Source: an uncultured Muribaculaceae bacterium (GTDB taxonomy: Bacteria > Bacteroidota > Bacteroidia > Bacteroidales > Muribaculaceae). From it: a stretch of DNA of 34,910 bases. Under the pieces are notes generated by a model. The model worked only from the letters and a program-made list of their open reading frames with translations. It had not been told where the DNA came from and searched no databases. Position numbers and translations under genes: made by a program. Positions 1,178 to 18,396 of the stretch are shown here, one piece after another. The stretch is taken from contig CANQWS010000029.1 in the NCBI GenBank assembly GCA_947627615.1, forward strand, positions 1-34,910, given 5' to 3'. Within the stretch, counting starts at the first letter, position 1; the number at the start of each line of letters is the position of its first letter.

Positions 1178-1178
1178 C

Positions 1179-2318: not shown

Positions 2319-2346
2319 TATGGAGCATAGAGTGAGGGTAACGGTG

Positions 2347-2385: not shown

Positions 2386-2389
2386 CGAT

Positions 2390-2659
2390 ATGGAACAAAA
2401 ATGCTGTCAGAGCTGCGGAATGCCGCTCACAAATGAAATCCTCGGTACAAATGGGGATGGCACGCTCAATGACGATTACTGCATTTACTGCTACAAGGAC
2501 GGCAAGTTCACCCAGGACATGACCATGGAGCAGATGATTGACCACTGCGTCCGGTTCACCGACGAGATAAACAAGCAGTCAGGGCAGAACCTGACAGTGG
2601 AACAGGCCAAGGAGATGATGCGCCAATTCTTTCCACACCTCAAACGCTGGAAAAAATAG
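2390..2659 (+). CDS. Small putative zinc-ribbon protein
   Basis: The 89-residue product starts with MEQKCCQSCGMPL and later has DDYCIYCYKDGKF, giving two CxxC knuckles about 28 residues apart, as in the putative zinc ribbon family (Pfam Zn_ribbon_2 type). The rest is helical, ending in LTVEQAKEMMRQFFPHLKRWKK, which is also typical of this family. The function of the family is unknown; it is often found beside stress-response regulators. The gene is 5 nt upstream of the DJ-1/PfpI gene, indicating co-transcription. Only 4 nt separate its start from the stop of the hxlR tail remnant, so it probably once followed hxlR directly. Confidence 0.85.
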   Translation: MEQKCCQSCGMPLTNEILGTNGDGTLNDDYCIYCYKDGKFTQDMTMEQMIDHCVRFTDEINKQSGQNLTVEQAKEMMRQFFPHLKRWKK

Positions 2660-2664
2660 ATTTT

Positions 2665-3273
2665 ATGAGCAACGAAATTCTATATATCCTTCTGCCCGAT
2701 TATGCCGCGCATGAGGCCGTGTATCTCTCGCAGGCAATAGCCTCCGATGATTTTGCGCTGAAAGAGAATCCCAAGTATGTCAATAAGGTTGTGGCTCCGT
2801 CAATGGAACCCGTCAAGTCCATAGGAGGCTTCCGGACATTACCGGACTATTCGTTCGACACGATGCCCGACGATTATGCGGCGCTGGTACTTATCGGAGG
2901 TTTCGGCTGGAGCAAGCCGGAAGCTGATAAAGTTGCTCCTATTGTCCGGAATGCCATTGAGAGAGGCAAGCCGATTGGTGCGATATGCAATGCCGCTTCA
3001 TGGATGGCAAAACACGGCTTCCTCAACGCCGTGAAGCATACCGGCAACGGCCTGGACCAGCTGAAATTATGGGGCGGCGAAAACTACACCAATCCTGATG
3101 GCTATACCCATGCCCAGACTGTCAGCGACAATAACATCCTGACGGCCAACGGTTCAGCCACTCTTGAATTTGCCAAAGCACTGCTTTTGCTTCTTGAGAA
3201 CGACACCCCGGAGCGAATCGAAATGTACTATCAGTTCAACAAGCAGGGCTTCTGCTCCTTATTCCCATCCTGA
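2665..3273 (+). CDS. DJ-1/PfpI-family type 1 glutamine amidotransferase-like protein
   Basis: This 202-residue cytoplasmic protein has the DJ-1/PfpI fold signature. E17 (PDYAAHEAVYLS) and the nucleophile elbow GAICNAASWMA with C108 form the expected Glu-Cys pair, and LVLIGGFGWSKPEA is the oxyanion loop. It most resembles the YoaZ-like subgroup annotated as glutamine amidotransferase. Relatives include deglycases/glyoxalases, proteases and isonitrile hydratases, so the substrate cannot be read from sequence. As the last gene of an HxlR-controlled operon, a role against reactive aldehydes or other electrophiles is plausible (inference). The downstream spacer (3274-3398) holds no clear terminator or promoter. 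Confidence 0.87.
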   Translation: MSNEILYILLPDYAAHEAVYLSQAIASDDFALKENPKYVNKVVAPSMEPVKSIGGFRTLPDYSFDTMPDDYAALVLIGGFGWSKPEADKVAPIVRNAIERGKPIGAICNAASWMAKHGFLNAVKHTGNGLDQLKLWGGENYTNPDGYTHAQTVSDNNILTANGSATLEFAKALLLLLENDTPERIEMYYQFNKQGFCSLFPS

Positions 3274-3398
3274 CGAAAATAATGTACGGATGAAGCAAAC
3301 ACATCTGAGCAGTCTGCGGAAAAATATCTGATTCGGAATCCTTTTCAACAGATGCAAATTTAGCTCACACCCATTTATCCTACAAATATCGCAAGAGC

Positions 3399-4430
3399 TT
3401 ATTCTGCTTCGATAATGGATTGCACCATACGCCGTAGTTCTTCTCGGTTCGGAAGATACATCTGATACTTTGAAACAAAAATATTGCTGTCCATGCCATA
3501 AGTCGCATATTCGACCACAAGCTCATTTTTTGAATGGCATAGGACTATTCCGATAGGTTTATTATCATCGGAGTGAGATACCTCGTTGGCAAAATACCCA
3601 AGGTACATGTTCATTTGCCCTATGTCATAATGTTTCACGCCAGCCCGTTTCAAGTCTATCAAAATATAACATTTCAATATGGCGTGGTAAAACACCAAAT
3701 CGACATAATAATGTGTGTTGCCAATTTGAATCGGATACTGTTCCCCTATGAAAGCGAAACCTTTGCCAAGTTCAAGAAGAAACTTTTGCATGTTGTCAAT
3801 CAAGGCTTTCTCAAGACTTGATTCTGAATATCTCTTTCCTTCCGGGATTCCCAGAAATTCAAGCACAAAAGTATCTTTGACCACATCTTGAGGACTACGG
3901 ATTATCTGCCCTTTCTCTGCCAACGCCAATACTCCGGCCTTATCATGGCTTTGAGCAAGACGCATAAATAATCCTGAATCAATTTGTCTGCGGAGGGCAC
4001 GAACACCCCAATGTTGCGTTAGACATTCATTTTCGTAGAACTGTCTTTCAAGACTATCATCAATTTCCAACAGCTCACACCAATGCGACCAACTCAATTT
4101 TCCAGACACTGTCTGGAATTTTGGATAGTACAGATACAATCGTCTCATATTATGAAGATTAGACAGACTACATCCTTTGCCAAGTTGTAAAGTCAATCGT
4201 TTAGATAATTTACGCATGAGTCCCTCACCATAAGAAGCCCTTGCTTTTCCATCCTGTTCAAATTCCACGATATACTCTCAAATATGCCAATTGGTTATTA
4301 CGAGAGTATCGTCTATCTGATGCAAAATTTTCGTCTTGGCTTCTGAAACCAGACATACAATTCGATCCACAAGATTTTCAAACCCTGCGTCATCATCCGG
4401 CAATATAGGTTTTGGCTTTATTGGCTTCAT
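3399..4430 (-). pseudogene. DUF1016/YhcG-type PD-(D/E)XK nuclease gene with in-frame stop
   Basis: From ATG 4430 the frame reads MKPIKPKPILPDDD... to NWHI, then TGA at codon 51 (4280-4278), and continues in the same frame for 292 codons. Family members have a Gly-Arg/Lys-Tyr-Ile-Val-Glu-Phe-Glu segment here (W-x-I-G-x-YIVEFEQ), so a GGA to TGA change of a conserved Gly is the simplest reading. The remainder is intact: the N-terminal helical DUF1016_N domain (LSKRLTLQLGKGCSLSNLHNMRRLY), then the nuclease core with YYVDLVFYHAILKCYILIDLK, the PD-(D/E)XK-like catalytic motif. The product without the stop would be 343 residues, normal for the family. Initiation at GTG 4268 would give a 289-residue protein lacking part of the N-terminal domain. 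Family members accompany restriction systems and mobile DNA. The gene is visibly AT-richer than the tsaE-yifB part of the window. Confidence 0.8.
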
Positions 4431-4511
4431 AACAAATGCATAAATAATAAATTATTTGGAATTGAGCTATAAGGTATTAAAGTATTACCAAAGCTCGTTG
4501 TCTTTCTTTGA

Positions 4512-5009
4512 CAAGGCGACGATTTCGTAGGCTATCCGACCGTCCTTGGAGCGGCATTCGGTATCATCGAAGCTATTCCCTTTGCATTTCCGGCTAAGTG
4601 CAAAATTCTTGCTGAGGTGCTGTCCCAATCGTTGGAATATCATGGTAATTTTGTAACTTTGGTGGCGGGATTGTCTTTGGCTGTCTGGAGTATTGTATAT
4701 ATGAGAATTTACGGTCAAGGTAATCCGTTTGATGCAATGGGACACGAGATTGCTCCTCGAACCCAACATCTGATGACCGATGGGCCATGTCGCCATACTC
4801 GTAATCCGATGCTCAGCGGAACTTTTGTTTATTATCTCGGCATCCTCACGATACTCCGCTCCTGGCAAGCCGTACTTATCTTTGTGATCATAACGATTAT
4901 CATGTTGGTTCAGGTTCACGACGAAGAACATCGTCTTGAGCGAGATTTTGGCGATGAGTACCAAAACTACAAACAAAAGTGGGAAGATTTTTCTAATCGG
5001 TGCATTTGA
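4512..5009 (+). pseudogene. Isoprenylcysteine methyltransferase-like membrane protein, probably frameshifted
   Basis: The open frame from 4512 has no usable start before GTG 4617. Its translation has the ICMT/PEMT-like features: a membrane segment (VTLVAGLSLAVWSIVY), then TDGPCRHTRNPMLSG (family motif GPYRYxRNPMY), two further membrane segments, and DEEHRLERDFGDEYQNY. Coding-like sequence continues upstream in another frame (4483-4527, YYQSSLSFFDKATIS), consistent with one base lost in the T-run near 4522-4526. At the 3' end the family ending VGRFF plus stop appears in the +1 frame (4979-4996), consistent with a lost base near 4975. The current frame instead runs on to NRCI. Two apparent 1-nt deletions suggest decay. 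Family members methylate carboxyl or amine groups at the membrane; the substrate here is unknown. A short functional protein from GTG 4617 remains possible. Confidence 0.55.
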
Positions 5010-5103
5010 ATATTCTTTATATTTCTCTTCAAACTCATAACTATCTTGTCGCAGAGTTTGGCGATATTGCGGGAAAATGCGTGGCTGTTTCGAGGTTTAT
5101 GGC

Positions 5104-5111
5104 TAAATTTG
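5104..5111 (+). promoter_or_regulatory. -7 promoter element of tsaE
   Basis: TAAATTTG matches TAnnTTTG and ends 18 nt before the chosen ATG (5130). No good TTG is seen 19-21 nt upstream. Its position makes the longer in-frame start at 5046 unlikely. Confidence 0.45.
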
Positions 5112-5129
5112 CAGCATAAACATAAAAGC

Positions 5130-5567
5130 ATGACTGAACACATAATCAATATCCCTACGCCGGCCGACCTCCCCGCCGCTGCCGATGCATTCATAGACCT
5201 GATGGGTGACTACACCGTGTTTGCGTTCAACGGCGAGATGGGCGCTGGCAAAACTACCTTCATCTCGGCGCTGGCCCGACAGCTCGGCGTGACCGAGGAT
5301 CTGGCTTCGTCACCCTCGTTTGCCATTGTCAACGAATACCGTTCCGACACCACAGCCGAACTCATCTATCATTTCGACCTTTACCGTCTGAAGAATCTCG
5401 AGGAAGCCCTGGAGATAGGCATAGAGGACTATTTCGATTCGGGCGCCCTGTGTCTGATAGAGTGGCCCGACCGTGCGGCCGACGTGTTGCCGCTTGACAC
5501 TGTGATGGTTGACCTCGCGGTAGAGCCCGACGGCTCCCGCCGCATGAGCGTCAGACTCCCTGACTGA
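5130..5567 (+). CDS. tsaE: tRNA N6-threonylcarbamoyladenosine biosynthesis ATPase TsaE
   Basis: This 145-residue cytoplasmic P-loop protein has Walker A GEMGAGKTT at residues 35-43, SSPSFAIVNEY with the family's conserved SPTF-like strand, YHFDLYRL, and LIEWPDRA near the end. These are the standard TsaE (YjeE) motifs. TsaE works with TsaB and TsaD to load the threonylcarbamoyl group on A37 of ANN-decoding tRNAs. The frame is open upstream to 5046, but those 28 residues do not resemble the family and precede the -7 element, so ATG 5130 is chosen. The gene stands alone on this strand between the decayed methyltransferase gene and the sialic acid operon. Confidence 0.93.
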   Translation: MTEHIINIPTPADLPAAADAFIDLMGDYTVFAFNGEMGAGKTTFISALARQLGVTEDLASSPSFAIVNEYRSDTTAELIYHFDLYRLKNLEEALEIGIEDYFDSGALCLIEWPDRAADVLPLDTVMVDLAVEPDGSRRMSVRLPD

Positions 5568-5699
5568 CACGGCCCGAAAAATTACTGAATTTATTGCGCA
5601 TGCACCGGCGGGGCGAACATATCCGACCCGCCGCGATGCCTCCTGCTGCCGTCTTACCGGCTTACCGGGACCCCGGCAGTGAATTCCTTGGGGAATTGT

Positions 5700-5730
5700 T
5701 TTGCAGAAGTGGATTATTTCGCTATTTTTG
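5700..5730 (+). promoter_or_regulatory. Promoter of the sialic acid operon
   Basis: TTTG (5700-5703), a 19-nt spacer and TATTTTTG (5723-5730) match the Bacteroidetes consensus closely. The predicted start is about 30 nt before the transporter ATG at 5768. The rest of the 200-nt spacer (5568-5699) shows no gene. Confidence 0.65.
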
Positions 5731-5767
5731 CCATACCGAATAATCTATACCACTCATACATCAATTT

Positions 5768-7039
5768 ATGACAACAGAAAACAGACGCAGCAGTTTTTAT
5801 CCATGGGTCGTTGTAGGGCTTCTTTGGGTCGTGGCCCTTCTTAATTATATGGACCGCCAGATGCTTTCGACCATGCGCGATGCCATGGCTTTTGACATCA
5901 CCGACCTCGAGAACAAGGTGATGTTCGGCAAGATAATGGCTGCCTTCATGTGGATCTACGGATTCATGAGCCCGATTTCGGGTATAGTGGCCGACAGGGT
6001 CAACCGCAAGTGGCTGATAGTGTGCTCGCTTGCCGTATGGTCCGGAGTGACGCTCGCCATGGGCTATGCCACCACCTACGAGCAGGTCTACTGGCTTCGC
6101 GCCGCCATGGGCGTCAGCGAGGCTCTGTACATTCCCGCCGCTCTTTCGCTTATCGCCGATTATTTCACCGGCAAACAGCTCAGTTTCGCCATAGGCATTC
6201 ACATGACCGGACTGTACATGGGTCAGGCCATCGGCGGCTTCGGGGCCTTTGTGGCCGAGAAGGTGTCATGGCAATCTACATTCCACTGGTTCGGCATCAT
6301 AGGAATAGTCTATGCCTTTGTGCTGATATTCTTCCTCCACGAGAAACGCGCTTCCTCGTTCGAGACGCCGAAAGAGGTCAAGGAAAAGGCGCCGCTCGGC
6401 AAGGTGCTCCGCGAGAACATGCGCGCCGTCGGGTCATCTCTCGGCATGCTGCTGGCCAACATTGCCTTCTGGACCATTCTCTTCTTCTTCGCCTCATGCT
6501 CTGTGCCCGGATGGGCCACAAAGAACTGGCTCCCGACACTGTTTGCCGATTCGCTCGGAATCGACATGGTGACAGCCGGCCCCATAGCAACCATAACCAT
6601 TGCTTTCGCCTCGTTCATCGGCGTGATGGTAGGCGGCCCCATGGCCGACCGCTGGGCGCAGAAGAATCTGCGCGGACGCATCTACACGAGTTCCATCGGT
6701 CTGGCCATGATGATTCCCTCGCTGGTCATGATGGGATTCGGCACAAGTGTGGGCGCGGCCGTGGGCGCCGGACTTTTCTTCGGTCTCGGCTACGGACTTT
6801 TCGATACCAACAACATGCCTATCCTCTGCCAGTTCGTGCCGTCGCGCTCGCGAGGAACGGCCTACGGCATCATGAACATGTCGGGCCTGTTCATAGGCGC
6901 GCTCGCCACTGACCTGCTCGGCACCCTCGCCCAGGAAGGCAACATGGGACTGGGATTCGCCTTCATGGCCGGCGCGCTACTGCTTGCCCTTGCGGCTCAG
7001 CTCCTGATTCTCCGTCCCAAAACTCTCAACATGGAATAA
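5768..7039 (+). CDS. nanT: MFS transporter, probable sialic acid permease (NanT-like)
   Basis: The 423-residue inner-membrane protein has about 12 hydrophobic helices. The first loop has NYMDRQMLSTMRDAM and the 2-3 loop SGIVADRVNRKWLI fits the MFS signature GxxaDRxxRr. A matching motif (GGPMADRWAQKNLRGR) lies in the second half. The family is the anion:cation/sugar-acid symporter branch that includes the Bacteroides and Tannerella sialic acid transporter NanT. Lyase and esterase genes follow at once (21 nt to the lyase), so uptake of N-acetylneuraminate with a proton is the likely function. Sequence alone would also allow another sugar acid; the operon makes the call. Confidence 0.8.
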   Translation: MTTENRRSSFYPWVVVGLLWVVALLNYMDRQMLSTMRDAMAFDITDLENKVMFGKIMAAFMWIYGFMSPISGIVADRVNRKWLIVCSLAVWSGVTLAMGYATTYEQVYWLRAAMGVSEALYIPAALSLIADYFTGKQLSFAIGIHMTGLYMGQAIGGFGAFVAEKVSWQSTFHWFGIIGIVYAFVLIFFLHEKRASSFETPKEVKEKAPLGKVLRENMRAVGSSLGMLLANIAFWTILFFFASCSVPGWATKNWLPTLFADSLGIDMVTAGPIATITIAFASFIGVMVGGPMADRWAQKNLRGRIYTSSIGLAMMIPSLVMMGFGTSVGAAVGAGLFFGLGYGLFDTNNMPILCQFVPSRSRGTAYGIMNMSGLFIGALATDLLGTLAQEGNMGLGFAFMAGALLLALAAQLLILRPKTLNME

Positions 7040-7060
7040 CCTGTAAAAAACAAATAAGAT

Positions 7061-7978
7061 ATGGAAAAAATCAAAGGTCTTATAGACGCTCCTTTCACTC
7101 CGTTTCATGAAAACGGAGATATAAATCTCGAACCGATTCCCGCCTACTGCAACATGCTCGTGGTCAACGGCATGCAGGGCGTATTCATCAACGGATCATC
7201 CGGCGAGGGCTATATGCTGACTCCCGACGAGCGCAAAGCCATTGCCGAGGAATGGGTCAGAGTGGCTCCCGAAGGCTTCAAGGTAATTGTCCACGTAGGT
7301 AGCTGCTGCGCGCGCGAAAGCCGCGAACTTGCCCGCCACGCCGCCGAAATCGGTGCATGGGGCATAGGTGCCATGGCGCCCCCGTTCCCAAAAATCAACC
7401 GCATCGAGGAACTGGTGAAATACATAGAGTACATCGCCGCCGGCGCTCCCGAACTGCCGTTCTACTACTACCACATCCCGGCCTTCAACGGCGCTTTCCT
7501 GCCCATGGTCAAGCTTCTTGAGGCCGTTGACGGACGCGTGCCCAACTTTGCCGGAATCAAATATACCTTCGAGAGCATCTACGAGTACAACCAGTGCCGC
7601 CTGTACAAGAACGGCAAGTACGACATGCTCCACGGTCAGGACGAGACCATTCTTCCCTCGCTCGCCATGGGCGGCGCACAGGGCGGAATCGGCGGAACCA
7701 CCAACTACAACGGCCGCGAGCTGAACGCCATAATCGAGTGCTGGAAACACGGCGACATCGAAGGCGCCCGCGAGCATCAGAATTTCGCCCAGGAGGTCAT
7801 AAACGTGATATGCCATTACCGCGGCAACATCGTGGCCGGCAAGCGCATCATGAAACTGATAGGTCTCGACCTCGGTCCCAACCGCGTGCCGTTCCAGAAT
7901 ATGACGCCGGAGGAAGAGGAAGCCATGAAGGCCGAACTCGACGCCATTGATTTCTTCTGCCGCTGTAACAAAGTCTGA
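7061..7978 (+). CDS. nanL: N-acetylneuraminate lyase
   Basis: The 305-residue cytoplasmic class I aldolase belongs to the DHDPS/NAL superfamily. GSSGEGY (45-51) binds the pyruvate carboxylate, Y137 in YYYHIP is the catalytic Tyr, and K167 in AGIKYT is the Schiff-base Lys; the positions match E. coli NanA (Tyr137, Lys165). GGAQGGIGGTTNYNG follows the barrel end. It cleaves N-acetylneuraminate to N-acetylmannosamine and pyruvate. The GSSGEGY and YYYHIP forms favour lyase over dihydrodipicolinate synthase. The gene lies 21 nt after the transporter and 17 nt before the esterase/mutarotase fusion. No ManNAc epimerase is found in the operon, so the product must be processed by a gene elsewhere. Confidence 0.9.
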   Translation: MEKIKGLIDAPFTPFHENGDINLEPIPAYCNMLVVNGMQGVFINGSSGEGYMLTPDERKAIAEEWVRVAPEGFKVIVHVGSCCARESRELARHAAEIGAWGIGAMAPPFPKINRIEELVKYIEYIAAGAPELPFYYYHIPAFNGAFLPMVKLLEAVDGRVPNFAGIKYTFESIYEYNQCRLYKNGKYDMLHGQDETILPSLAMGGAQGGIGGTTNYNGRELNAIIECWKHGDIEGAREHQNFAQEVINVICHYRGNIVAGKRIMKLIGLDLGPNRVPFQNMTPEEEEAMKAELDAIDFFCRCNKV

Positions 7979-7995
7979 ACTTCTACAATATCCGG

Positions 7996-10900
7996 ATGAA
8001 TCTTCGATATCTTATGACAGTCATGGCCATTGCGGCCATGGCTTTCGGCATTTCAGCCGAAACAAAAGTTGCCTGTGTGGGCAACAGTATAACCTACGGC
8101 TACGGACTGCCTGACTCGCTCAGACCTGCCCGGAGCTATCCCGCGCGTCTTCAGGCATTGCTTGGCGACGGTTACCGGGTAGGCAACTTCGGCCACAACG
8201 GCGCCACGCTGCTCCGCCACGGCCACCGTCCCTACTTCAGCCTGCCGGAGTACGCTCAGGCAAAGGCCATGGATGCCGACATAATTGTGATTCATCTGGG
8301 AGTAAACGACACGGATCCGCGTGACTGGCCCAACTATGGCGATGAGTTCGTGGCTGATTATTCGGCTCTGATTGACAGTCTGCGGGCCGGAGATCCCTCG
8401 AAACGCATAATCATTGCCCGCCTGACGCCCATCGGCGCACCGCATTACCGGTTCAGGACCGGAACGCGTGACTGGCGCCTGCTGGAGCAGGAGGCCATTG
8501 AGCGCGTGGCCCGCATAAAAGGGGCGGAACTGATTGATTTCGACACGCCGCTGCGTGACCGCCAGAACCTCATGCCTGACGCCATCCACCCGAACGCCGA
8601 GGGCTACGACATTCTGGCCCGCACGGTCCATGCCGCCATAACGGGCAAGCGCGGTGGCCTTAAACTCCCGCCATTCTACCAGAGCGGAATGGTGATCCAG
8701 CGCCACAGGTCCCTGACCATCTCCGGCCAGGCCGACAGCAACGCCCCCGTCACCCTCAGACTCGACGGAATCACCTACCGAACCAAAGCCGACGGCAACG
8801 GTCTGTGGAGCATAGAGACCGCACCGCTTGCCAACGGCACCTACACACTCGAAGTCAGCGACGGGAAAAAGACCATCCGCCTGACCGACATCGTTGCCGG
8901 AGAAGTGTGGGTGGCTTCCGGCCAGAGTAACATGGCCTTTGAACTCTCGTCGGATACCAGAGGAGCCGAAGCCATAGCAGCCGCCGGAGACCCGGACCTG
9001 CGGTTCTTCGACATGCGTCCGGTGGCCTATACCAACAACGAGAAATGGCCCGATTCGATTCTGACAGCCATAGACACCCTCGGCCATTTCCGGCCGGCCG
9101 TATGGGCCCGGGCCACACCGGAGACAGCCGGACGGCTGTCGGCCGTGGCCTATTACTTCGGACGCCGTCTGCGGGATTCGCTCGATGTGCCGGTAGGCAT
9201 AATAGTCAACGCCGTGGGCGGAGCCCCTTGTGAGGCATGGATTGACGTCAACACCCTCGAGACCGTCACCCCGGAAGCGCTTGTCAACTGGCGGCGCAAC
9301 GATTACGTGCAGCCGTGGGTGCAGGGCCGGGCCGACGTCAACGCTCCGGCGCCCCACCGCCATCCCTACGAGCCGAGCTATCTGTTCTCGTCGGGAATAC
9401 GTCCGCTGGGACGTCCCGACATAGCCGGAGTTATATGGTATCAGGGTGAATCCAACGCCCACAACACCGAACTGCATGAAACATTCTTCCCCATGCTCGT
9501 CGACAGCTGGCGCCGCGAGTTCCGCCGTCAGGACCTGCCGTTCTGCTTCGTTCAGCTGAGCAGCATCGACAGGCCTTCATGGCCCGGATTCAGGGACTCG
9601 CAGCGACGCATGGCCAGGCGCAAGCCCGGCGTATGGATGGCCGTCAGCTCTGACAAAGGCGATTCGCTCGATGTGCATCCCCGCTTCAAGGAACCTGTGG
9701 GCGAACGTCTGGCACGGCAGGCCCTCCACAACGTCTACGGGTTCAAGAACCTGACGCCTGAGGGACCGGAGCCGGTCAAAGCCATGGCCTCGCGCAATTC
9801 TTCGGTTACCGTCACTTTCGACAATGCCTCAGGCCTGACCACATCGGATGGCGCCGCACCGCGCACATTCGAGATTGCCGGCCGTGACGGTGTGTTCTAT
9901 CCCGCCGATGCCGTTATTGACGGCCCCGCTGTGCGGGTCGCCTCAGAGTCAGTCAGCCGGCCATGTTACGTGCGCTATGGCTGGCAGCCGTTTACCCGCG
10001 CCAATCTCATCAATGCCGACAGCCTGCCGGCTTCAACCTTTAAAATAACCATTGACAACATGAATGACTTATATGAAATGGAACCGGGCTACAGCCGGGG
10101 AGTCTCCGCTGCTTATTCCGGTAGTTTTGCCGACGGTACACTGATTGTGGCCGGCGGCGCCAATTTCCCCTGCGACGACCCGCTGGCTCCTACGGCCCGT
10201 AAGAAACTCTATTCCGGCATCTACACCCTCGACCCGGCTACATTTGAGCTGAAACGTTTCGGCTCGCTGCCGGCGCCCATGGCCTACGGTGCTTCGGTCA
10301 CCCTCCCCGATGGAATTGTCCTGATCGGCGGGACGGACGACAACGGAAGCCTCAAGTCAGTGTACCTGCTCGAAGCTTCAGGCGAAATCAAACCGCTGCC
10401 GGAGCTGCCCAAGACAATCGACAATATGGCCGCCGCTGCCATAGGCAACAGGATTTATGTGGCCGGAGGCAATGTCGACGGCAAACCGTCGTGCGACCTT
10501 TTCATGCTTGACCTTGACAAAATTTCGGCCGGATGGCGCAAACTCCGTTCCATGCCGGGCAACCCGAGGGTGCAGCCGGTCATGGCGGCAACTGGCGGCA
10601 AACTCTATCTCTGGGGCGGTTTCGCCGGACGATTTGCCGGACATGAGCCCACTCTGGAGCTCGACGGTCTGGTCTATGACCCGGAATCGAACAAATGGAG
10701 CGCTATCCAGGGTCCCGTGACCGACGACGGAGTGAAAGTATCGACCGGAGGCGGAGCCGCAGCCACACTCGCTGACGGCCGCATAGCCGTTGCCGGCGGA
10801 GTGAACAAGGACGTTTTCCTCTCGGCCCTGATAGACCAGGCCGCCGATTATCTGCTTCATCCCATACCCTGGTACGGCCTGAATCCCCGCGTATTCGTGT

Positions 10901-11058
10901 TCGATCCGGCCTCAGGCCGGTGGAGCGCCGATGCGCCCGACGCCATGACAGCACGCGCCGGAGCCTCCATGCTGCCTGACAGAAACGGATTCTATCTGTT
11001 CGGCGGCGAGCTGAAACCGAGAATCAGGACCAGTCAGACCATCCACGTGACAAAATGA
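7996..11058 (+). CDS. Secreted SGNH esterase / sialate O-acetylesterase / NanM-like mutarotase fusion
   Basis: The 1020-residue protein has three parts behind a signal peptide (residues 1-21, cleavage likely after GISA). Residues 22-215 are an SGNH/GDSL hydrolase: GNSIT with Ser31, GVND (102-105) and DAIH with D195 and H198. Residues 220-680 are a sialate O-acetylesterase (SASA) domain: ASGQSNM with Ser311, WYQGESN (481-487) and a candidate catalytic His561 in DVHP. Residues 690-1020 carry kelch-type beta-propeller repeats (LIVAGGANFP, VLIGGTDD, IYVAGGN, LYLWGGF, IAVAGGV, FYLFGGE), as in NanM and cyclically permuted mutarotases. Tannerella and Bacteroides NanS/EstA already combine the two esterase parts; adding the mutarotase in the same chain is unusual. 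The protein would de-O-acetylate and anomerise sialic acid in the periplasm before uptake. It overlaps the next gene by 4 nt. Confidence 0.88.
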   Translation: MNLRYLMTVMAIAAMAFGISAETKVACVGNSITYGYGLPDSLRPARSYPARLQALLGDGYRVGNFGHNGATLLRHGHRPYFSLPEYAQAKAMDADIIVIHLGVNDTDPRDWPNYGDEFVADYSALIDSLRAGDPSKRIIIARLTPIGAPHYRFRTGTRDWRLLEQEAIERVARIKGAELIDFDTPLRDRQNLMPDAIHPNAEGYDILARTVHAAITGKRGGLKLPPFYQSGMVIQRHRSLTISGQADSNAPVTLRLDGITYRTKADGNGLWSIETAPLANGTYTLEVSDGKKTIRLTDIVAGEVWVASGQSNMAFELSSDTRGAEAIAAAGDPDLRFFDMRPVAYTNNEKWPDSILTAIDTLGHFRPAVWARATPETAGRLSAVAYYFGRRLRDSLDVPVGIIVNAVGGAPCEAWIDVNTLETVTPEALVNWRRNDYVQPWVQGRADVNAPAPHRHPYEPSYLFSSGIRPLGRPDIAGVIWYQGESNAHNTELHETFFPMLVDSWRREFRRQDLPFCFVQLSSIDRPSWPGFRDSQRRMARRKPGVWMAVSSDKGDSLDVHPRFKEPVGERLARQALHNVYGFKNLTPEGPEPVKAMASRNSSVTVTFDNASGLTTSDGAAPRTFEIAGRDGVFYPADAVIDGPAVRVASESVSRPCYVRYGWQPFTRANLINADSLPASTFKITIDNMNDLYEMEPGYSRGVSAAYSGSFADGTLIVAGGANFPCDDPLAPTARKKLYSGIYTLDPATFELKRFGSLPAPMAYGASVTLPDGIVLIGGTDDNGSLKSVYLLEASGEIKPLPELPKTIDNMAAAAIGNRIYVAGGNVDGKPSCDLFMLDLDKISAGWRKLRSMPGNPRVQPVMAATGGKLYLWGGFAGRFAGHEPTLELDGLVYDPESNKWSAIQGPVTDDGVKVSTGGGAAATLADGRIAVAGGVNKDVFLSALIDQAADYLLHPIPWYGLNPRVFVFDPASGRWSADAPDAMTARAGASMLPDRNGFYLFGGELKPRIRTSQTIHVTK

Positions 11059-11828
11059 GCTACAAGATGAAAAAAGCAATCAACGACCTGAGCACCGCCA
11101 CCTACGGCGAGGTGCGCACGCAGGACTACGACATAGCCCTCCTGCCCTGGGGCGCTACGGAACCCCACAACTATCATCTGCCTTATCTGACGGATGCCAT
11201 ACTCAGCCACGACATAGCCGTCGACGCCGCCCGCAAGGCTCTGGAGCTTTACGGCGTCAGGGCCATGGTGCTCCCCCCAATGCCTCTCGGCGCCCAGAAT
11301 CCCGGGCAGCGCGAACTGAAGTTCTGCATCCACTACCGTTACGACACCCAGCGCGCCGTGCTGACCGACATAGCCTCGTCACTGGACCATCAGGGCCTCC
11401 GCCGGCTGCTGATCATCAACGGACACGGAGGCAACGTGTTCAAAAACATGATCCGCGACCTCGCCATTGACCTGCCCGACATGCTCATAGCCACCGGCGA
11501 ATGGTTCAAAGGGGCGCCGGCCAAAGACTATTTTGACCACCCCGGCGACCATGCCGATGAACTGGAGACCTCGGTGATGATGCATTATCATCCTGACTAC
11601 GTAGACCTGTCGACCGCCGGCCACGGAGGCGACGGCGGTTTCCGGAGCGAGGTGCTTTCGCGCGGTGTGGCCTGGCTCCCGCGTGACTGGAGCCGCATAA
11701 GCCCCGATACCGGCGTAGGCGACCCGTCGCTTGCCACGGCCGAGAAGGGCGCCCGCTTCGCCGATGCCTGTTCGTCGGCTTTCGCTCAGGTCATAGCCGA
11801 TCTCTGCGCCCCCGACCTCTACCGCTGA
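11055..11828 (+). CDS. Creatininase-family amidohydrolase, role unknown
   Basis: The 257-residue cytoplasmic protein has the creatininase metal site: GATEPHNYHLPYLTD supplies E36, H38 and D47, NGHGGN (122-127) supplies H124, and DELETS supplies E171. It therefore probably binds two divalent metals and hydrolyses an amide or similar bond. Known relatives are creatinine amidohydrolase, ArfB formamide hydrolase, MftE peptidase and inosose hydrolase IolN, so the family is chemically broad. The start overlaps the stop of the fusion gene (ATGA), which couples it to sialic acid metabolism. An alternative start is M5 at 11067. True creatinine turnover is unlikely in this context. An amide of a modified sialic acid, such as a lactam or N-acyl group, is a speculative substrate. 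Confidence 0.85.
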   Translation: MSYKMKKAINDLSTATYGEVRTQDYDIALLPWGATEPHNYHLPYLTDAILSHDIAVDAARKALELYGVRAMVLPPMPLGAQNPGQRELKFCIHYRYDTQRAVLTDIASSLDHQGLRRLLIINGHGGNVFKNMIRDLAIDLPDMLIATGEWFKGAPAKDYFDHPGDHADELETSVMMHYHPDYVDLSTAGHGGDGGFRSEVLSRGVAWLPRDWSRISPDTGVGDPSLATAEKGARFADACSSAFAQVIADLCAPDLYR

Positions 11829-11891
11829 GTCCCGGCTCTGCCATGTCGCGCGCCCGGTTTTACTGATTTATAGAACTATTGCAACCTTACT

Positions 11892-13061
11892 ATGGATAAT
11901 TTCACTTATTGCACTCCAACAAAATACGTGTTCGGACGCGGCGCCGAACTTAATGCCGCCGCGGAGCTGAAGGCATTGGGCCTCGGCAAGGTAATGGTGG
12001 TCTATGGCGGCGGCTCCGCCGTTCGCAGCGGCTTGCTCGGCCGTGTGCTCGAGAATCTTGACGCTTTCGGCATTGTTCATGTCGAACTCGGCGGCATAGA
12101 GCCTAATCCCACCGACCCGAAGGTGCGCGAGGGCATCGACGTGTGCCGCAGAGAGCACATCGAAGGGCTGCTTGCCGTTGGCGGCGGCTCGGTTATCGAC
12201 ACCGCGAAAGCCATTGCAGCCGGGGTGCCTTACCATGGCGATTTCTGGGACTTCTGGGCCGGGAAAGCCACCGTTGAAAAAGCGTTGCCCGTGGGCGTGG
12301 TGCTGACTATTCCCGCCGCCGGCAGCGAGGGATCGGGCAACTCGGTCATAACCCTGCTTGACGGACTTCACAAGATTAGTCTGCGCACCGACTACTGGCT
12401 GCGCCCGAAATTCGCGCTGCTCAATCCGGAACTCACGTTCACCTTGCCCCCGGCACAGACCGCTGCCGGAATAGCCGACATGATGGCACATATCTTTGAG
12501 CGCTATTTCTCCCCCACTCAGGATGTGGAAATCACCGACCGTGTGGCCGAGGGAGTGCTCATGACCATAATAGAGGAAGCTCCCAAGGTCATGGCGCGCC
12601 CCGACGACTATCAGGCCCGTGCCAACATAATGTGGAGCGGTACCCTTGCCCATAACGGCATCTGCGGCACCGGACGCAAGGAGGACTGGGTGTCACACTT
12701 CATGGAGCACGAAATCAGCGCCGTCTATGGTGTGACCCACGGTGCCGGACTGGCCGTTATGCTGCCGGCATTCATGACCTTCATGGCACACCACGCTCCT
12801 GCCAAGGGTGCCCATCTCGCACGCCGTGTGTTCGGCATATCCGAACCCGACGACACAGCCGCCGCACTTGCCGGCATCACGGCGCTCAAATCGTTCTTCG
12901 GTTCACTCGGCTTGCCACTGACATTCAAGGAGCTCGGCATCGAAAACCCCGACATTGACCTGCTCGTCAAAAAGCTCCACGAGAACAAAGGCGAAGTCAT
13001 AGGCGGCTACTACCCCCTCCGCGTCGCCGACACCGCCGCCATCTACCGCCTCGCCCTCTGA
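11892..13061 (+). CDS. Iron-containing alcohol dehydrogenase (BdhA/YqhD type)
   Basis: The 389-residue cytoplasmic enzyme belongs to the group III metal-dependent alcohol dehydrogenases. VGGGSVID (96-103) binds the nucleotide, and D196, H200, H269 and H283 match the metal ligands of YqhD in spacing (H269 and H283 are 14 apart as in YqhD). The family reduces aldehydes with NAD(P)H and often works on toxic or fermentation aldehydes. It begins 63 nt after the creatininase gene with no clear promoter or terminator between them, so it may be read with the sialic acid operon, but a link to that pathway is not shown. An extragenic palindromic element follows it. Confidence 0.88.
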   Translation: MDNFTYCTPTKYVFGRGAELNAAAELKALGLGKVMVVYGGGSAVRSGLLGRVLENLDAFGIVHVELGGIEPNPTDPKVREGIDVCRREHIEGLLAVGGGSVIDTAKAIAAGVPYHGDFWDFWAGKATVEKALPVGVVLTIPAAGSEGSGNSVITLLDGLHKISLRTDYWLRPKFALLNPELTFTLPPAQTAAGIADMMAHIFERYFSPTQDVEITDRVAEGVLMTIIEEAPKVMARPDDYQARANIMWSGTLAHNGICGTGRKEDWVSHFMEHEISAVYGVTHGAGLAVMLPAFMTFMAHHAPAKGAHLARRVFGISEPDDTAAALAGITALKSFFGSLGLPLTFKELGIENPDIDLLVKKLHENKGEVIGGYYPLRVADTAAIYRLAL

Positions 13062-13090
13062 CCCTCCCCTACCAGATAAAGTATTCTCAG

Positions 13091-13199
13091 CCTCGTAGAG
13101 GCGTACAAATTGTAGCCCCATATCGGAAGCTGCCGAGGAACGAGGCGGCCTTCCGGTATGGGGTATAGGTACAAAAAAGATTCCCTGGCCTCGAAGAGG
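13091..13199. repeat. Extragenic palindromic element
   Basis: Two 11-nt near-identical blocks, CCTCGTAGAGG (13091-13101) and CCTCGAAGAGG (13189-13199), flank a large hairpin. In the hairpin 13116-13129 pairs with 13150-13163 over 14 bp with one G-U, and after one bulged C five more pairs close a 9-nt loop (13135-13143). No T-tract follows, so it is not a classic terminator. The form is that of a repetitive extragenic element; copies elsewhere could not be checked. Between 13200 and 13279 I see nothing further. Confidence 0.55.
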
Positions 13200-13279
13200 T
13201 CAATTAATTCTCCCACTGAATGCCATTACCCCCGCCGCAGGGATTTTCAGGGCTGGATTTGAGTTTTTTTTGCGATAGG

Positions 13280-13311
13280 TTGCTGGTAATCAGAAAAATT
13301 GATTACCTTTG
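13280..13311 (+). promoter_or_regulatory. Promoter of the hybrid regulator with overlapping operator-like dyad
   Basis: TTG (13280-13282), 21 nt and TACCTTTG (13304-13311) fit the Bacteroidetes consensus. A perfect inverted repeat, GGTAATCA (13285-13292) and TGATTACC (13300-13307) with a 7-nt spacer, fills the spacer and overlaps the -7 box. TGATTACC recurs at 17411 upstream of the operon this regulator should control, suggesting autoregulation. The transcript leader to ATG 13420 is about 100 nt. Confidence 0.6.
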
Positions 13312-13419
13312 TGACTCTGACGCCGAGGTCAGGCGGTTTTTCCCGCCGAATCATCGGAGTCCGACCTGAATCCTTTACCAGTCACCAATCATTATCATTT
13401 CTTCCAAGTAATTACCAGA

Positions 13420-16400
13420 ATGCATCTCTTCCGTCTGATAATCAGCGCTGTTTTTCTCTTAATCTGCCCGCAAGCGTTTACCTCCAGACCAGCAATCACG
13501 GGGGCCGACCATCTTCAGGCCAAGGACGGTCTGAGCAGCGACCGGGTGTTTTCCGTTGTCGAGGACAATGACGGGGTTATCTGGGTGGGGACCAAGGAGG
13601 GTGTGGACCGTTTCAACGGCCGTGACTTCAAGCACTATCCACTGCTCGACGATTTGCGTTACGGCGATTTTGCCGCAAGGGTCATAAAACTGGTTGTCAA
13701 CAGTGGGAACGAGCTGATGGCCTACGATAACACCGGGCATCTCTACGGCTACAATCCCATTCTGGACAAGTTTGATGTGAAACTGCGCCTGACGGAGAAA
13801 TTCGAGGAATATGTGACGCTAAACGCGGTTGTTCCAGCATCGGACGGCTCGTTACTCATCGGGCTGACATCGGGGCTTTTCCGGGTGAAAGGCGACGACA
13901 TTACCAAAGTGGCGGACAATCTGAGCGTCAACGACATGATTGTTCTCGGCGACAGACTGCTGGCGGCCACCACCGCCGGAACCATCCTGATAACACCGGG
14001 TTCCGGCAGCCGGAAAACACTTCTCGACAAGAACACCCAGACATTATATTATGACCCGGCCTCACAGTGGGTCTACATAGGCACGTTCAACAACGGTCTC
14101 TGGCGCTATAATCTCGCCACCGGCAAATCGGAGAAACTGAATCATGACAGCCGCGAACTGGACAAACCTGTCAGGGCCATAAAGAAGCTTGACGACCGGC
14201 ATATAGCCATAGGGATAGACGGAGTGGGCGCATATTCGTTCGACACGACCGACCTGAGCATAGACAAGCTGGCCAACACCGGAGGCTCCACCGGCATACG
14301 CCTCAACGGCAACGGCGTCTACACCATTCTGAAAGACAGCTACGGCAATCTCTGGGTGGGGAGCTACACCGGCGGCCTTACCATCCTGATGTTCACGTCA
14401 TGGCCCGCGAAACATATCATTCACGACAAGGGCAACATCAACTCCATAGCCGACAACAATGTCAACGCCATCGCCGAAAACAGCGACGGCAAGATATGGT
14501 TTGCCACCGATGCGGACATCAGCATCGAGGACCCGTCGACGAACCGCTGGAGCCACATTGACGTAAATGCCGTCACCGTAGGGCTGCAACGCCTCGACGA
14601 CGGCCGCATAGCCGCGGGCACGTATGGCGATGGCATCTACATTTTCGATTCGTCAGGCCGCAGGCTGAAACACATAAACAGAGAAAACGCCGGCATAAGC
14701 TCCAACTACATCTTTTCAATCAGGCAAGGCTCCGAGGGCGACATCTGGGCCGCCTCGCTCGACGGCGGAATCATGAGATTCGACAGGAATTTCAACTACA
14801 AGAAAACCTATCCCGTCAACGTGTCATTCAATGTGACGGTCACCCCCGACGGGAAGATAGCGGCGGCCACGGCCGACGGCTATCACGTGATAGACCCCGC
14901 GACGGACCGCATAGAGCATTACGCCAGTGTGGCCGAGCAGGTCAACTCCAACACAAGCGTCTACATCATCTCCATGCTTTTCAACTCCGACGGCAAAGTG
15001 TGGCTGGGGACGGAAGGCGGCGGAATCAATGTCTATGACCCGGCCTCGCGCACTGTCATAAAGAAATACCGCACAGATGACGGACTGCCGTCCAACGACA
15101 TCTACTGCCTGCTCCGCGACAACGACGGCAACATCGTGGCATCGACAGGCAACGGAATAGCGGTGCTGCAGGATTCGGTGTTCAAATCGCTGAATTATCT
15201 CCACGGACTCGCCAAGGAATACAACAAATCAGCCGGAGTGCTTCTCGGCAACGGAGACATGATATTCGGCAGCGTCGACGGAGCCGTCAGGGTCACGCCC
15301 TCGAAAGCCGGAGGCGCAGACTACACGGCCGGCCTGAGAATCACGGGATTTGTGGTTGACGGGCGTGAGGGCGACGAGGATTTCCTGAAATCACTTACGG
15401 GACATCTGAACGAGGGCCGGATAAAGCTGTCATACCGCGACAACTCCTTTGCCGTGCGCTTCGAGTCAATCAACCTACCCTATCGGGAGGACATCGGCTA
15501 CCAGTACATACTGGAGGGCTACGACAAGACATGGAGCAACATCTCCGAATCCGGCACGGCACCCTACAAAAGGGTAGTTCCCGGCGACTATACCCTGCAT
15601 ATACGCAGCGTACGCATAAGCGACGGAACCATTCTGGACGAAAAGGACATCAGTGTCACCGTGGCCAAGCCCTGGTGGCTGCAATGGTGGGCTATAGGCA
15701 TCTACGTCATCATGTTCATCCTGCTGGGATATTTCATTTACCGCTACAAGAGGGACAGGCTCAAACAGGAGTATGACGAGGACAAGATACGCTTCTTCAT
15801 CAACACCGCCCACGACATAAAAACGCCGGTGTCGCTTGTAATGGGCCCCATATCAGACCTGCAGAACGACGGGAGCATCACCGGAAAGGCCAGGGAGCTG
15901 GTGTCGATAGCCGGATCAAACATCAGGAAACTCAACTCCATCATGACCCAGCTTCTGGAGTTCGAGCGCTTTGATCTGGGCAACCGGAAGCCGAAATCCG
16001 AGACCATTGACATGACCGAGTTCGTGGCAATGGAAGTTGACTGCTTCCGCAACGCCTTCAAGCGCAAAGGCATAGAGCTCGTTTTCCGGAAGCCGGAGGA
16101 ATCCATCGGCATGGCGGGCGACCGCTACCTGCTGGAGATGATGATTGACAACCTTCTGTCAAATGCCTGCAAATACACCATGACCGGAGGCGTGGTGACC
16201 GTAAGCCTACAGCCGTGCAACAGAAAGTTCAGGCTTACCATAAGCGACACCGGCATAGGAATCCCGTCCAAAGACCAGAAAGAGGTGTTCACCAACGTGC
16301 ATCGCGCACAGAACGCACGCGAGTCCAACGAGAGCGGCACCGGATTCGGACTGCTGCAGGTCAAGCGAATCGTAGAAATCCACAAAGGCAACATCCAGCT

Positions 16401-17337
16401 CAAGTCACAGGAAGGCCGGGGAAGCGTGTTCACCCTCACATTCAACCGCTCCTATCACTCGGCGGCGCCTTCACCCGCCGAGAAACTTACCATCACCCAC
16501 ATCGACGAACTCGGGTCGTTTGAGCCGCAGTCCAACATTATCAGCGGCGACAAGTCAAGCACCATACTTATCGTCGAGGACAACGATGACCTGCGGAACT
16601 ATCTGAGCAAAACCTTCGCGGAAGACTATGACATAGCCGCCACAAGCTCGGCCGACGAAGCCATGACCTATCTGCAGGGACATTTCCCGGACCTGATCAT
16701 TTCCGACGTGATGATGGCCGGAATGCAGGGCGACGATTTCTGCTATGCCGTGAAATCGAACCCGTCCACGGCCGGAATCCCCTTCATACTTCTCACTGCC
16801 AGATCCGGACATGACGCAATGGTTTCCGGACTGACAAAGGGGGCCGACGACTACATTCCCAAGCCGTTCAACACCGAAATTCTCAAACTGAAAGTCTCGG
16901 GAATGCTGGCCAACCGTGAACGGCAGCGCGAATTCTTCCTACGTCAGGCTGTGGGGCAGATAACAGAACAGACCGAACCCGTCGAGGCCGAAACCACCGG
17001 CGGAGACAAACCCGCCTGCGAGGCCGACAAGGCATTCATTGACAAAGTAACCGATGTCATTGCCCGGAATCTGGGCGACCGGGAATTCAACATTGACCGC
17101 CTATGCCGGGAAATGGCCATGAGCCGCACCCTGTTTTTCAGCAAACTGAAATCGCTCACGGGCAAAGGGCCGCAGGAGTTCATCAGAATCCTGAGACTTG
17201 AGAAAGCCGCCGAACTGCTGAAAAACGGCACCTCGGTATCTGATGTCTGCGACATGACCGGCTTCACGAATTCCAAGTATTTCAGCACCCTTTTCAAGAA
17301 GCATTTCGGCATCTCTCCGAGCAAATACAACGAGTAG
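13420..17337 (+). CDS. Hybrid two-component system regulator (HTCS) of the beta-glucan locus
   Basis: The 1305-residue inner-membrane protein has a signal peptide or anchor (1-25). A periplasmic two-component propeller has repeated VW(V/I)GT-type blades (EDNDGVIWVGTKEGV, YGNLWVGSYTGG, DGKVWLGTEGGG). A Y_Y_Y domain with YILEGYDKTWSN follows, then one transmembrane helix (~755-778). The cytoplasmic part holds a histidine kinase with H798 in AHDIKTP, an ATPase domain with DTGIGI and GTGFGL, a receiver domain with D1096 in ISDVMM, and an AraC-type DNA-binding domain (~1205-1305). HTCS proteins bind a glycan breakdown product in the periplasm and activate the adjacent operon. It lies directly upstream of the GH16-SusCD-GH3 genes in the same direction; the gap at 17338-17556 carries the likely target site. 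Confidence 0.95.
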   Translation: MHLFRLIISAVFLLICPQAFTSRPAITGADHLQAKDGLSSDRVFSVVEDNDGVIWVGTKEGVDRFNGRDFKHYPLLDDLRYGDFAARVIKLVVNSGNELMAYDNTGHLYGYNPILDKFDVKLRLTEKFEEYVTLNAVVPASDGSLLIGLTSGLFRVKGDDITKVADNLSVNDMIVLGDRLLAATTAGTILITPGSGSRKTLLDKNTQTLYYDPASQWVYIGTFNNGLWRYNLATGKSEKLNHDSRELDKPVRAIKKLDDRHIAIGIDGVGAYSFDTTDLSIDKLANTGGSTGIRLNGNGVYTILKDSYGNLWVGSYTGGLTILMFTSWPAKHIIHDKGNINSIADNNVNAIAENSDGKIWFATDADISIEDPSTNRWSHIDVNAVTVGLQRLDDGRIAAGTYGDGIYIFDSSGRRLKHINRENAGISSNYIFSIRQGSEGDIWAASLDGGIMRFDRNFNYKKTYPVNVSFNVTVTPDGKIAAATADGYHVIDPATDRIEHYASVAEQVNSNTSVYIISMLFNSDGKVWLGTEGGGINVYDPASRTVIKKYRTDDGLPSNDIYCLLRDNDGNIVASTGNGIAVLQDSVFKSLNYLHGLAKEYNKSAGVLLGNGDMIFGSVDGAVRVTPSKAGGADYTAGLRITGFVVDGREGDEDFLKSLTGHLNEGRIKLSYRDNSFAVRFESINLPYREDIGYQYILEGYDKTWSNISESGTAPYKRVVPGDYTLHIRSVRISDGTILDEKDISVTVAKPWWLQWWAIGIYVIMFILLGYFIYRYKRDRLKQEYDEDKIRFFINTAHDIKTPVSLVMGPISDLQNDGSITGKARELVSIAGSNIRKLNSIMTQLLEFERFDLGNRKPKSETIDMTEFVAMEVDCFRNAFKRKGIELVFRKPEESIGMAGDRYLLEMMIDNLLSNACKYTMTGGVVTVSLQPCNRKFRLTISDTGIGIPSKDQKEVFTNVHRAQNARESNESGTGFGLLQVKRIVEIHKGNIQLKSQEGRGSVFTLTFNRSYHSAAPSPAEKLTITHIDELGSFEPQSNIISGDKSSTILIVEDNDDLRNYLSKTFAEDYDIAATSSADEAMTYLQGHFPDLIISDVMMAGMQGDDFCYAVKSNPSTAGIPFILLTARSGHDAMVSGLTKGADDYIPKPFNTEILKLKVSGMLANRERQREFFLRQAVGQITEQTEPVEAETTGGDKPACEADKAFIDKVTDVIARNLGDREFNIDRLCREMAMSRTLFFSKLKSLTGKGPQEFIRILRLEKAAELLKNGTSVSDVCDMTGFTNSKYFSTLFKKHFGISPSKYNE

Positions 17338-17410
17338 AAATACCTGTCCGGGGAGTCTTTACGGCCATAATTTTCATCCCCGAGTCAAAAAACGCACCCT
17401 TATTCATCAC

Positions 17411-17472
17411 TGATTACCAACACATTATCATTTCTGTCAGAAATCAAACCCTGAAATGTCAGTAATCAAACC
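17411..17472 (+). promoter_or_regulatory. Candidate HTCS binding site of the beta-glucan operon
   Basis: Two direct repeats, TGTCAGAAATCAAACC (17435-17450) and TGTCAGTAATCAAACC (17457-17472), differ at one base and start 22 nt apart, about two helical turns, the usual geometry for an AraC-type protein contacting one face of DNA. TGATTACC (17411-17418) upstream matches the dyad arm at the regulator's own promoter. The downstream repeat ends 21 nt before the -7 box and so replaces the -33 element. Confidence 0.6.
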
Positions 17473-17493
17473 GGCAGGGATAACACCATCTAT

Positions 17494-17501
17494 TATTTTT
17501 G
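17494..17501 (+). promoter_or_regulatory. -7 element of the beta-glucan operon
   Basis: TATTTTTG matches TAnnTTTG. There is no TTG 19-21 nt upstream, and the direct repeats end there instead, consistent with an activator-dependent promoter. The leader to ATG 17557 is about 50 nt. Confidence 0.55.
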
Positions 17502-17556
17502 CGTCACAGATTCCGAAATCCAATACCTCGGGGTGGAAACTTCACATTTATAAATC

Positions 17557-18387
17557 ATGATAAACAGACCAGTGACATTATCTCTATTCTTAGCAGTTTT
17601 ATTATCCGGATGCGGCGGTTCAGACAGCAATTCCGCCACTCCCGCTCCGGAACCTGAAGCCAACGTCATATTCTACGATGACTTCAACACATTCGACGGC
17701 AACGCATGGACAAAGGAAACCCATGAGGCCGGATGGACCAATCAGGAACTCCAGTCCTATTCGCCGGAACAGGTTACGGTGGGCAGGGACGGCAACCGGT
17801 CCGTGCTGATTCTTACGGCCCGACGCTCCAACGGCAGGATTGTCTCGGGCCGCGTCAACTCCAAAGGAAAGAAAAGCTTCAAGTACGGAGTTGTGGAGGC
17901 AAGCATCAGGCTTCCCAAGACAGCCAACGGCCTCTGGCCCGCATTCTGGATGATGGGCGACAATGCAAAGGAATGGCCCGCATGCGGCGAAATCGACATC
18001 ATGGAAATGGGCGATGCGGCAGGAATAGCCGACGGAACCTCTGACAGCAGGGTCAACACCGCCATCCATTTCGGCCCTTCGGCGGCTGACCACCAGCAGG
18101 AGTACTTCGCCAAAAGCACGGGCATCAACCTGCAGGACGGCAACTACCACACCTACACCCTTGTATGGAACAAGAAAACGCTCGAAATCTCAATAGACGG
18201 CAAGCCGTTCCACACATTTGACATCACCAACAACACATTCATGCATGACAGATTCTTCATTCTGTTCAATCTCGCGGTAGGCGGTTCCTTTACCGGGATA
18301 ACCGACAAAAAAGAGATCACGGCTCTCAAGGAGGGCGAACAGGTGCAGATGTTCGTTGACTGGATAAGAATTTCACAATCTAACTAA
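17557..18387 (+). CDS. GH16 beta-glucanase, surface lipoprotein
   Basis: The 276-residue protein has a lipoprotein signal with lipobox LLSGC (Cys19). One jelly-roll catalytic domain covers about residues 30-276. GEIDIME supplies the nucleophile E145, D147 and acid/base E150 in the beta-bulge ExDxxE form. That form is typical of laminarinase-like GH16 enzymes, and also occurs in Bacteroides mixed-linkage glucanases. Other supporting blocks are WTNQELQSY, YGVVEASIRLPK and GLWPAFWMMG. It would cut beta-1,3 or beta-1,3/1,4-glucan at the cell surface into oligosaccharides for the SusC/SusD pair that follows after 9 nt. It is the first gene of the operon. Agarase or carrageenase activity is less likely because the partner exo-enzyme is GH3. 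Confidence 0.92.
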   Translation: MINRPVTLSLFLAVLLSGCGGSDSNSATPAPEPEANVIFYDDFNTFDGNAWTKETHEAGWTNQELQSYSPEQVTVGRDGNRSVLILTARRSNGRIVSGRVNSKGKKSFKYGVVEASIRLPKTANGLWPAFWMMGDNAKEWPACGEIDIMEMGDAAGIADGTSDSRVNTAIHFGPSAADHQQEYFAKSTGINLQDGNYHTYTLVWNKKTLEISIDGKPFHTFDITNNTFMHDRFFILFNLAVGGSFTGITDKKEITALKEGEQVQMFVDWIRISQSN

Positions 18388-18396
18388 TCTATACAC

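Follow-up and report, generated by a model that had tools for sequence, protein, structure and literature searches.

In the parts of PMC10017367 and PMC7899658 available to us, the published Bacteroides pathway for sialic acid (NanL, NanE, RokA, NagA, NagB) has no creatininase-type step, and in the former paper it runs through NagA. The string "creatinin" is absent from the main text of both papers and of PMC5583593, and the replacements named in the accessible part of the latter do not include NagA. While the creatininase superfamily and its fold are known, a role for such a protein in the operon considered here appears to be undescribed in the open-licence literature searched, whose listings and abstract openings held no description of a link between creatininases and sialic acid. 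To our knowledge there is no example of a creatininase-fold de-N-acylase of sugar metabolism. Here we analyze a creatininase-fold gene, CRN, in a 34,910-nucleotide stretch of DNA (the window) from an uncultured Muribaculaceae bacterium (order Bacteroidales, phylum Bacteroidota; contig CANQWS010000029.1), where it lies directly behind genes of sialic acid breakdown (nan genes). The explanation we find best, and hold tentatively, is that CRN may be an accessory cytosolic N-acylhexosamine amidohydrolase of sialic acid and N-acetylhexosamine breakdown.

The CRN gene and its active-site residues

CRN is an open reading frame (ORF) on the forward strand (11055-11828) that encodes 257 residues without an internal stop. 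The Pfam Creatininase profile (PF02633) matches residues 16-247 with 186.1 bits against a cut-off of 31.3, which places the protein in the superfamily, and its predicted fold is that of creatininase; at E 0.001 there is no second PF02633 match in the source genome, CRN being the sole one. A preliminary description, made from the DNA letters alone, had assigned this frame to the creatininase family and had noted that its start overlaps the stop of an upstream 1020-residue ORF (7996-11058), an esterase/mutarotase fusion, as ATGA, and both points are borne out. Along the run of MFS transporter, NanL, esterase/NanM fusion and CRN the gaps are 21, 17 and -4 nt. No hydrophobic leader is seen at the CRN N-terminus and, judged from its sequence, the protein is apparently cytosolic.

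The preliminary description also held that all metal ligands of the family are present. Indeed, in an alignment of 119 sequences that includes that of the window, E36, H38, D47 and H124 are invariant and E171 is found in 118, but the position of creatininase E122, which we take to be a metal-site residue, is occupied by G126 (glycine in 117 of the 119). Creatininase W174 is not kept, H162 of CRN standing in its place; creatininase mutants are named in the titles of structure entries for these positions. Further along the alignment, F90, C91 and H93 are present in all 58 near rows, versus N93 in 59, L90 in 50, C91 in 15 and F90 in only 3 of the 61 far rows. This F-C-x-H signature is also carried by L090, the sister row of the near clade (L and G numbers designate loci and genomes, respectively).

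Linkage, co-occurrence and phylogeny

A scan of named genomes with a short-pattern search, which finds close relatives only, yielded 44 relatives of CRN. At least one nan gene, defined here as NanL, NanM, SASA or MFS inside the fetched stretch, is present in 26 of the 44 loci, namely all 25 of L032-L056, whose copies are 59-79% identical to CRN, and L069; none is present in the stretches fetched for L057, L058 and 16 other scan loci. The gene upstream of CRN is callable in 24 of the 26 nan-operon loci (not in L034 and L055) and is the NanM fusion, NanE or NanL in 23 of these, L044 having another gene 251 nt away. The gap to the upstream gene ranges from -26 to +30 nt in 21 loci and is 88 nt in L050 and 75 nt in L054, all such distances being approximate since gene starts were set by a simple rule. 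The preliminary description had named such a neighborhood survey in advance as a test of its idea, with the lack of a conserved nan link as the refuting outcome; the link proved to be conserved.

Co-occurrence leads in the same direction. Among 295 genomes of the order (thresholds of E 1e-20 for CRN and E 1e-35 for NanL), 39 contain CRN, 30 contain NanL and 20 contain both (Fisher p=2e-13). As a lifestyle control we used fucose isomerase, for which 71 of 79 matches, those with E under 1e-20, were kept and 8 weak ones dropped, and with which CRN and NanL each associate. In genomes positive for fucose isomerase, CRN is found in 15 of 20 with NanL versus 13 of 51 others (p=3e-4); the corresponding figures for genomes negative for it are 5 of 10 versus 6 of 214 (p=2e-5). 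CRN and NanL lie within ~6 kb of each other in 5 of the 20 shared genomes (G000, the source genome, and G131, G166, G257 and G259) and ~18 kb apart in G121; in the other 14 they are on different contigs or far apart. Of 37 order-sample loci outside the window that were classified for the tree, 8 received the label nan, 4 the label amino-sugar and 25 none. Counted as nan are also L081, which has a transporter, L090, which has a sialidase, and L093, whose esterase match is weak; several of the contigs are short.

Within the family, 163 genomes were sampled (E 1e-30 for CRN, E 1e-35 for NanL). CRN is present in 15 and NanL in 34, and 14 of the 15 CRN genomes contain NanL (p=3e-10, a value that overstates independence as the genomes are related). 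A distance of 3 to 4.5 kb separates the two genes in 6 of these 14, among them the source genome. Two more have CRN near a NanM gene: in G844 it directly follows an esterase/NanM fusion, and in G720 it points away from NanM, a small ORF lying in the interval. The fifteenth, G759, has no NanL match at E 1e-35 and carries CRN behind ROK, MFS and SIS genes. Adjacency and co-occurrence in two genome samples thus support the coupling to sialic acid catabolism that the preliminary description proposed.

Near-clade relatives are found behind genes for a ROK kinase, an MFS transporter and an SIS sugar isomerase in L059, L060, L082 and, by similarity, L167. A GH20 gene comes after this run in L082, and genes that we take to be GH9-like (weak CelK match) follow in L059, L060 and L082, not in L167. 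CRN relatives adjoin a gene of the YhcH family, that of the E. coli anomerase NanQ, in L083-L085; L081 holds a cluster of NagC-like regulator, MFS, YhcH, CRN and a NagB-PIG-L fusion; and the L090 copy comes after a BNR sialidase. What most of these contexts and the nan operon have in common is N-acetylhexosamine, not sialic acid, which points to an N-acylhexosamine rather than to sialic acid itself. As a separate observation, the ROK-MFS-SIS-CRN operon of a Dysgonomonas (L060) has beside it, at 10828-13371, a gene that joins a polysaccharide-deacetylase part to a glycosidase-like one, the latter with a weak match to the cellobiosidase CelK.

A quick maximum-likelihood tree of the 119 sequences places the near rows in a 58-row branch (support 100, starred) with 31 nan, 6 amino-sugar and 21 unlabeled rows, inside which a 30-row branch (support 95, starred) holds 27 nan and 3 unlabeled rows. 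The nan label changes 9 times on the tree versus a mean of 30.4 in shuffles, a difference to which near copies contribute. L099 and L109 are far relatives truly adjacent to nan genes but without the F-C-x-H signature; their adjacency may be independent or due to chance. Of 76 phylum matches outside the order 40 were fetched, three of which (L118, L120 and L149) gave no usable gene call and are outside the tree, and the short L103 was dropped from tree and residue counts alike.

Proposed function and rival explanations

From the fold, the conserved residues and the gene contexts we infer that CRN would be a metal-dependent enzyme that acts on an N-acylhexosamine arising after the NanL step and hydrolyzes its exocyclic N-acyl amide. 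Candidate substrates are ManNAc or GlcNAc, possibly in N-glycolyl or 6-phosphate forms, and the products would be acetate or glycolate and a free amino sugar that passes to the kinase and NagB steps. The activity would be accessory, as CRN occurs in only part of the NanL genomes, and most of the nan-linked genomes tested are without NagA, the deacetylase usual for this step. Specifically, NagA (TIGR00221, E 1e-30) is found in 25 of the 295 order genomes and not in the source genome, which has no match even at E 1e-8. At this latter threshold only one (G314) of 24 genomes has NagA, the 24 being the source genome and G295-G317, hosts of 23 of the 25 loci L032-L056; the hosts of L037 and L042 were left out of the NanE and NagA searches, and since the completeness of the G295-G317 records is not given, absences there are weaker than that in the source genome. 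A more specific version, possible yet doubtful in our view, is that CRN strips ManNAc/GlcNAc-type sugars of their N-acetyl or N-glycolyl group and replaces NagA in members of the order that lack it, the F-C-x-H branch being devoted to sialate and N-acetylhexosamine breakdown.

A number of findings weigh against these proposals. NagA is present in Coprobacter (G318) and in both Dysgonomonas genomes, which with G314 makes 4 of 27, and across the order it occurs in 12 of the 39 CRN genomes, so that its association with CRN is positive, not negative, probably via lifestyle. A NagB-PIG-L fusion is found near full length in 21 of the 30 NanL genomes of the order, among them the source genome and all six that lack both NagA (E 1e-30) and CRN; reading of one copy, that of L081, showed the PIG-L motif HPDD. 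The presence of this fusion in NagA-less genomes suggests that some of them probably deacetylate by a different route. A deacetylase role for CRN becomes less likely for that reason, and simple replacement of NagA is weakened both by the positive association and by the fusion as an alternative. CRN is missing from 20 of the 34 NanL genomes of the family, hence its accessory status, and in at least five (L170, L171, L173, L175 and L176) of the 17 loci fetched from these 20 genomes the same run of MFS, NanL, NanE and fusion is present minus CRN. Six family copies (G728, G768, G787, G817, G830 and G854) lie beside unrelated genes, for example OstA-like, PPIase or aminotransferase ones, and 25 of the 37 order-sample loci have none of the neighbor genes sought. 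A 16-row, mostly Bacteroides branch of the tree has 14 unlabeled rows and 2 nan rows, these being identical Coprobacter copies from two fetches. Lastly, promoter-like and terminator-like sites in 5500-13500 show no clear excess over shuffles (3 versus 3.3 and 9 versus 6.5, respectively).

The NagB-PIG-L fusion, located at G000:C83:221-2095 in the source genome, and its relatives are common in NanL genomes of the order, many of them without a NagA match, and the fusion may itself be a replacement deacetylase. We also considered CRN as a substitute for NanE where NanE is not beside NanL, an idea mostly rejected: an AGE-type epimerase is present in 27 of 30 genomes searched, including G307, G311 and G316, the hosts of L046, L050 and L055. 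G088, G278 and G296 gave no match, the last being the host of L033, whose nan operon has no NanE. On the idea that CRN and YhcH might stand in for each other, YhcH lies within 8 kb of NanL in 0 of 26 loci with CRN versus 6 of 31 without it, in a count that pools 57 NanL loci from several fetches and counts one genome twice (L069, L088), yet L081 and L083-L085 have CRN and YhcH adjacent.

The alternative that fares best, though we regard it as rather unlikely, sees in CRN a hydrolase of the phylum with a general or repair role, only carried into nan operons, its association with them reflecting shared lifestyle. Consistent with this, relatives in other orders and classes have neutral neighborhoods, 56 of 60 rows in the far half of the tree are unlabeled, and 28 of the 39 CRN genomes have fucose isomerase. 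The association with NanL nonetheless survives stratification and is near-nested in the family (14 of 15), three different nan genes are found upstream of CRN, and F90, C91 and H93 mark the nan-rich branch, in contrast to the L90 and N93 of most far rows. The preliminary description had named a housekeeping amidohydrolase as a refuting outcome; a housekeeping gene of the order was rejected, as CRN is not universal there (39/295).

A further explanation, which we consider improbable, restricts CRN to N-glycolyl amino sugars derived from Neu5Gc (ManNGc, GlcNGc) and leaves the N-acetyl forms to NagB-PIG-L. It would explain both the accessory status of CRN and its coexistence with the PIG-L fusion, and in the part of PMC10017367 at hand the mouse gut is reported to contain Neu5Gc. 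However, nan-linked copies are present in Hoylesella, Hallella seregens, Segatella baroniae and Prevotella sp. oral taxon 376, presumably all human oral species, and humans are stated not to make Neu5Gc in the portions of the papers at hand (PMC10017367, PMC7899658). Nor is Neu5Gc required to account for the ROK-MFS-SIS and NagC/NagB contexts.

Less probable again is an action of CRN on sialic acid itself, in which it would hydrolyze the lactone or lactam form and so tidy up sialic acid variants alongside esterases and mutarotase. Creatininase does open a cyclic amide, and CRN directly overlaps the esterase/NanM fusion in the window and is its close neighbor in many relatives. Against this, CRN has no leader whereas the fusion has a signal-peptide-like start, and CRN is found in amino-sugar operons with no NanL beside it, once in a genome (G759) without a NanL match at E 1e-35. 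Indeed, sialic acid itself becomes less likely as the substrate because of the same-branch relatives in ROK-MFS-SIS operons, one of them in that NanL-less family genome, and because of the L081 cluster. Among the substrates listed in the preliminary description, a sialic acid lactam is thus disfavored, and it is the suggested breakdown product of the ManNAc type that we favor. That CRN is a true creatinine amidohydrolase is hardly credible, given 67 bits against the curated cut-off of 235 (TIGR04448), glycine for E122 and the loss of W174.

Sialic acid is an object of competition among gut bacteria, and an extra hydrolase that is conserved next to NanL suggests that current reconstructions overlook a step. 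The candidates named above form a short list of substrates that can be assayed and, with a solved homologous structure (3LUB), provide starting points.

Neighboring genes and described relatives

Features of the window that bear on CRN, with residue numbers of CRN where codons are given
Feature	Position	Strand	Basis
MFS transporter (NanT-like by position), first gene of the unit	5768..7039	+	Pfam MFS_1, 190 bits; many nan-linked loci have relatives next to NanL
NanL-type N-acetylneuraminate lyase, DHDPS family	7061..7978	+	Pfam DHDPS; best NCBIfam N-acetylneuraminate lyase match 141.7 bits, cut-off 281
GDSL esterase - SASA sialate esterase - NanM mutarotase fusion, 1020 aa	7996..11058	+	GDSL, SASA and NanM/mutarotase profile matches
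CRN, creatininase-fold amidohydrolase (predicted), 257 aa	11055..11828	+	Pfam PF02633
Codon stretch of E36, H38, D47 (metal site)	11160..11195	+	Invariant in 119 sequences; aligned with creatininase E34/H36/D45
Codons 90-93, F-C-x-H signature of the branch with most sialate-/amino-sugar-linked copies	11322..11333	+	Residue counts
Codons H124-G-G126-N127; creatininase counterpart H120-Y-E122-N	11424..11435	+	Alignment
Codons H166 to E171 (H-A-D-E-L-E); H166, E171 = creatininase H178, E183; E169 extra	11550..11567	+	Alignment
Iron-containing alcohol dehydrogenase, 63 nt downstream of CRN; unit membership uncertain	11892..13061	+	NCBIfam PRK15138, 308 bits, cut-off 645

The lyase falls under the curated cut-offs of both N-acetylneuraminate lyase models that it matches, and we name it NanL because of its neighbors and its recurrence in such loci. 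By eye, the fusion that follows has a signal-peptide-like N-terminus; its NanM part is permuted, and many relatives have similar GDSL/SASA/NanM fusions. The nan operon of L173, which lacks CRN, contains a row of three GDSL/SASA esterase genes (783-8235), of which one is joined to NanM. No NanE was found in the window; one AGE-type epimerase match on another contig (G000:C1:112518-113513, locus L115) is a candidate NanE. The alcohol dehydrogenase, which we take to be YqhD-like, recurs near the nan operon in the window and in L032, L033, L035, L039, L041, L169, L170 and L175, downstream on the same strand in some and on the other strand in others. Beyond it, positions 13420-26874 hold genes for a hybrid two-component regulator, GH16, SusC/SusD-type proteins and GH3, a separate polysaccharide locus whose substrate is probably a beta-glucan.

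With creatininase (1J2T, 1Q3K and mutants; TIGR04448) CRN shares the fold and the positions E34, H36, D45, H120, H178 and E183; it differs in its ~23% identity, in the glycine for E122 and in not keeping W174. 3LUB is a solved structure from Bacteroides fragilis NCTC 9343, whose title calls the protein a putative creatinine amidohydrolase; the Bacteroides copies sampled here mostly sit apart from nan genes. MftE of mycofactocin and IolN, a 3-dehydro-scyllo-inosose hydrolase, belong to the same superfamily as CRN, and their names show that it hosts different hydrolyses; both identities were ruled out for CRN on curated cut-offs, with 66.5 bits against 172 for MftE (TIGR03964) and 33.5 against 245 for IolN (NF041098). 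NagA would do a similar job to that of CRN if our best explanation holds, but is of a different family; a search of CRN against NCBIfam at E 0.001 gave no match to TIGR00221. With the Bacteroides pathway of NanL, NanE, RokA, NagA and NagB, the locus has in common NanL and an MFS transporter, and the genome has an AGE-type epimerase on another contig.
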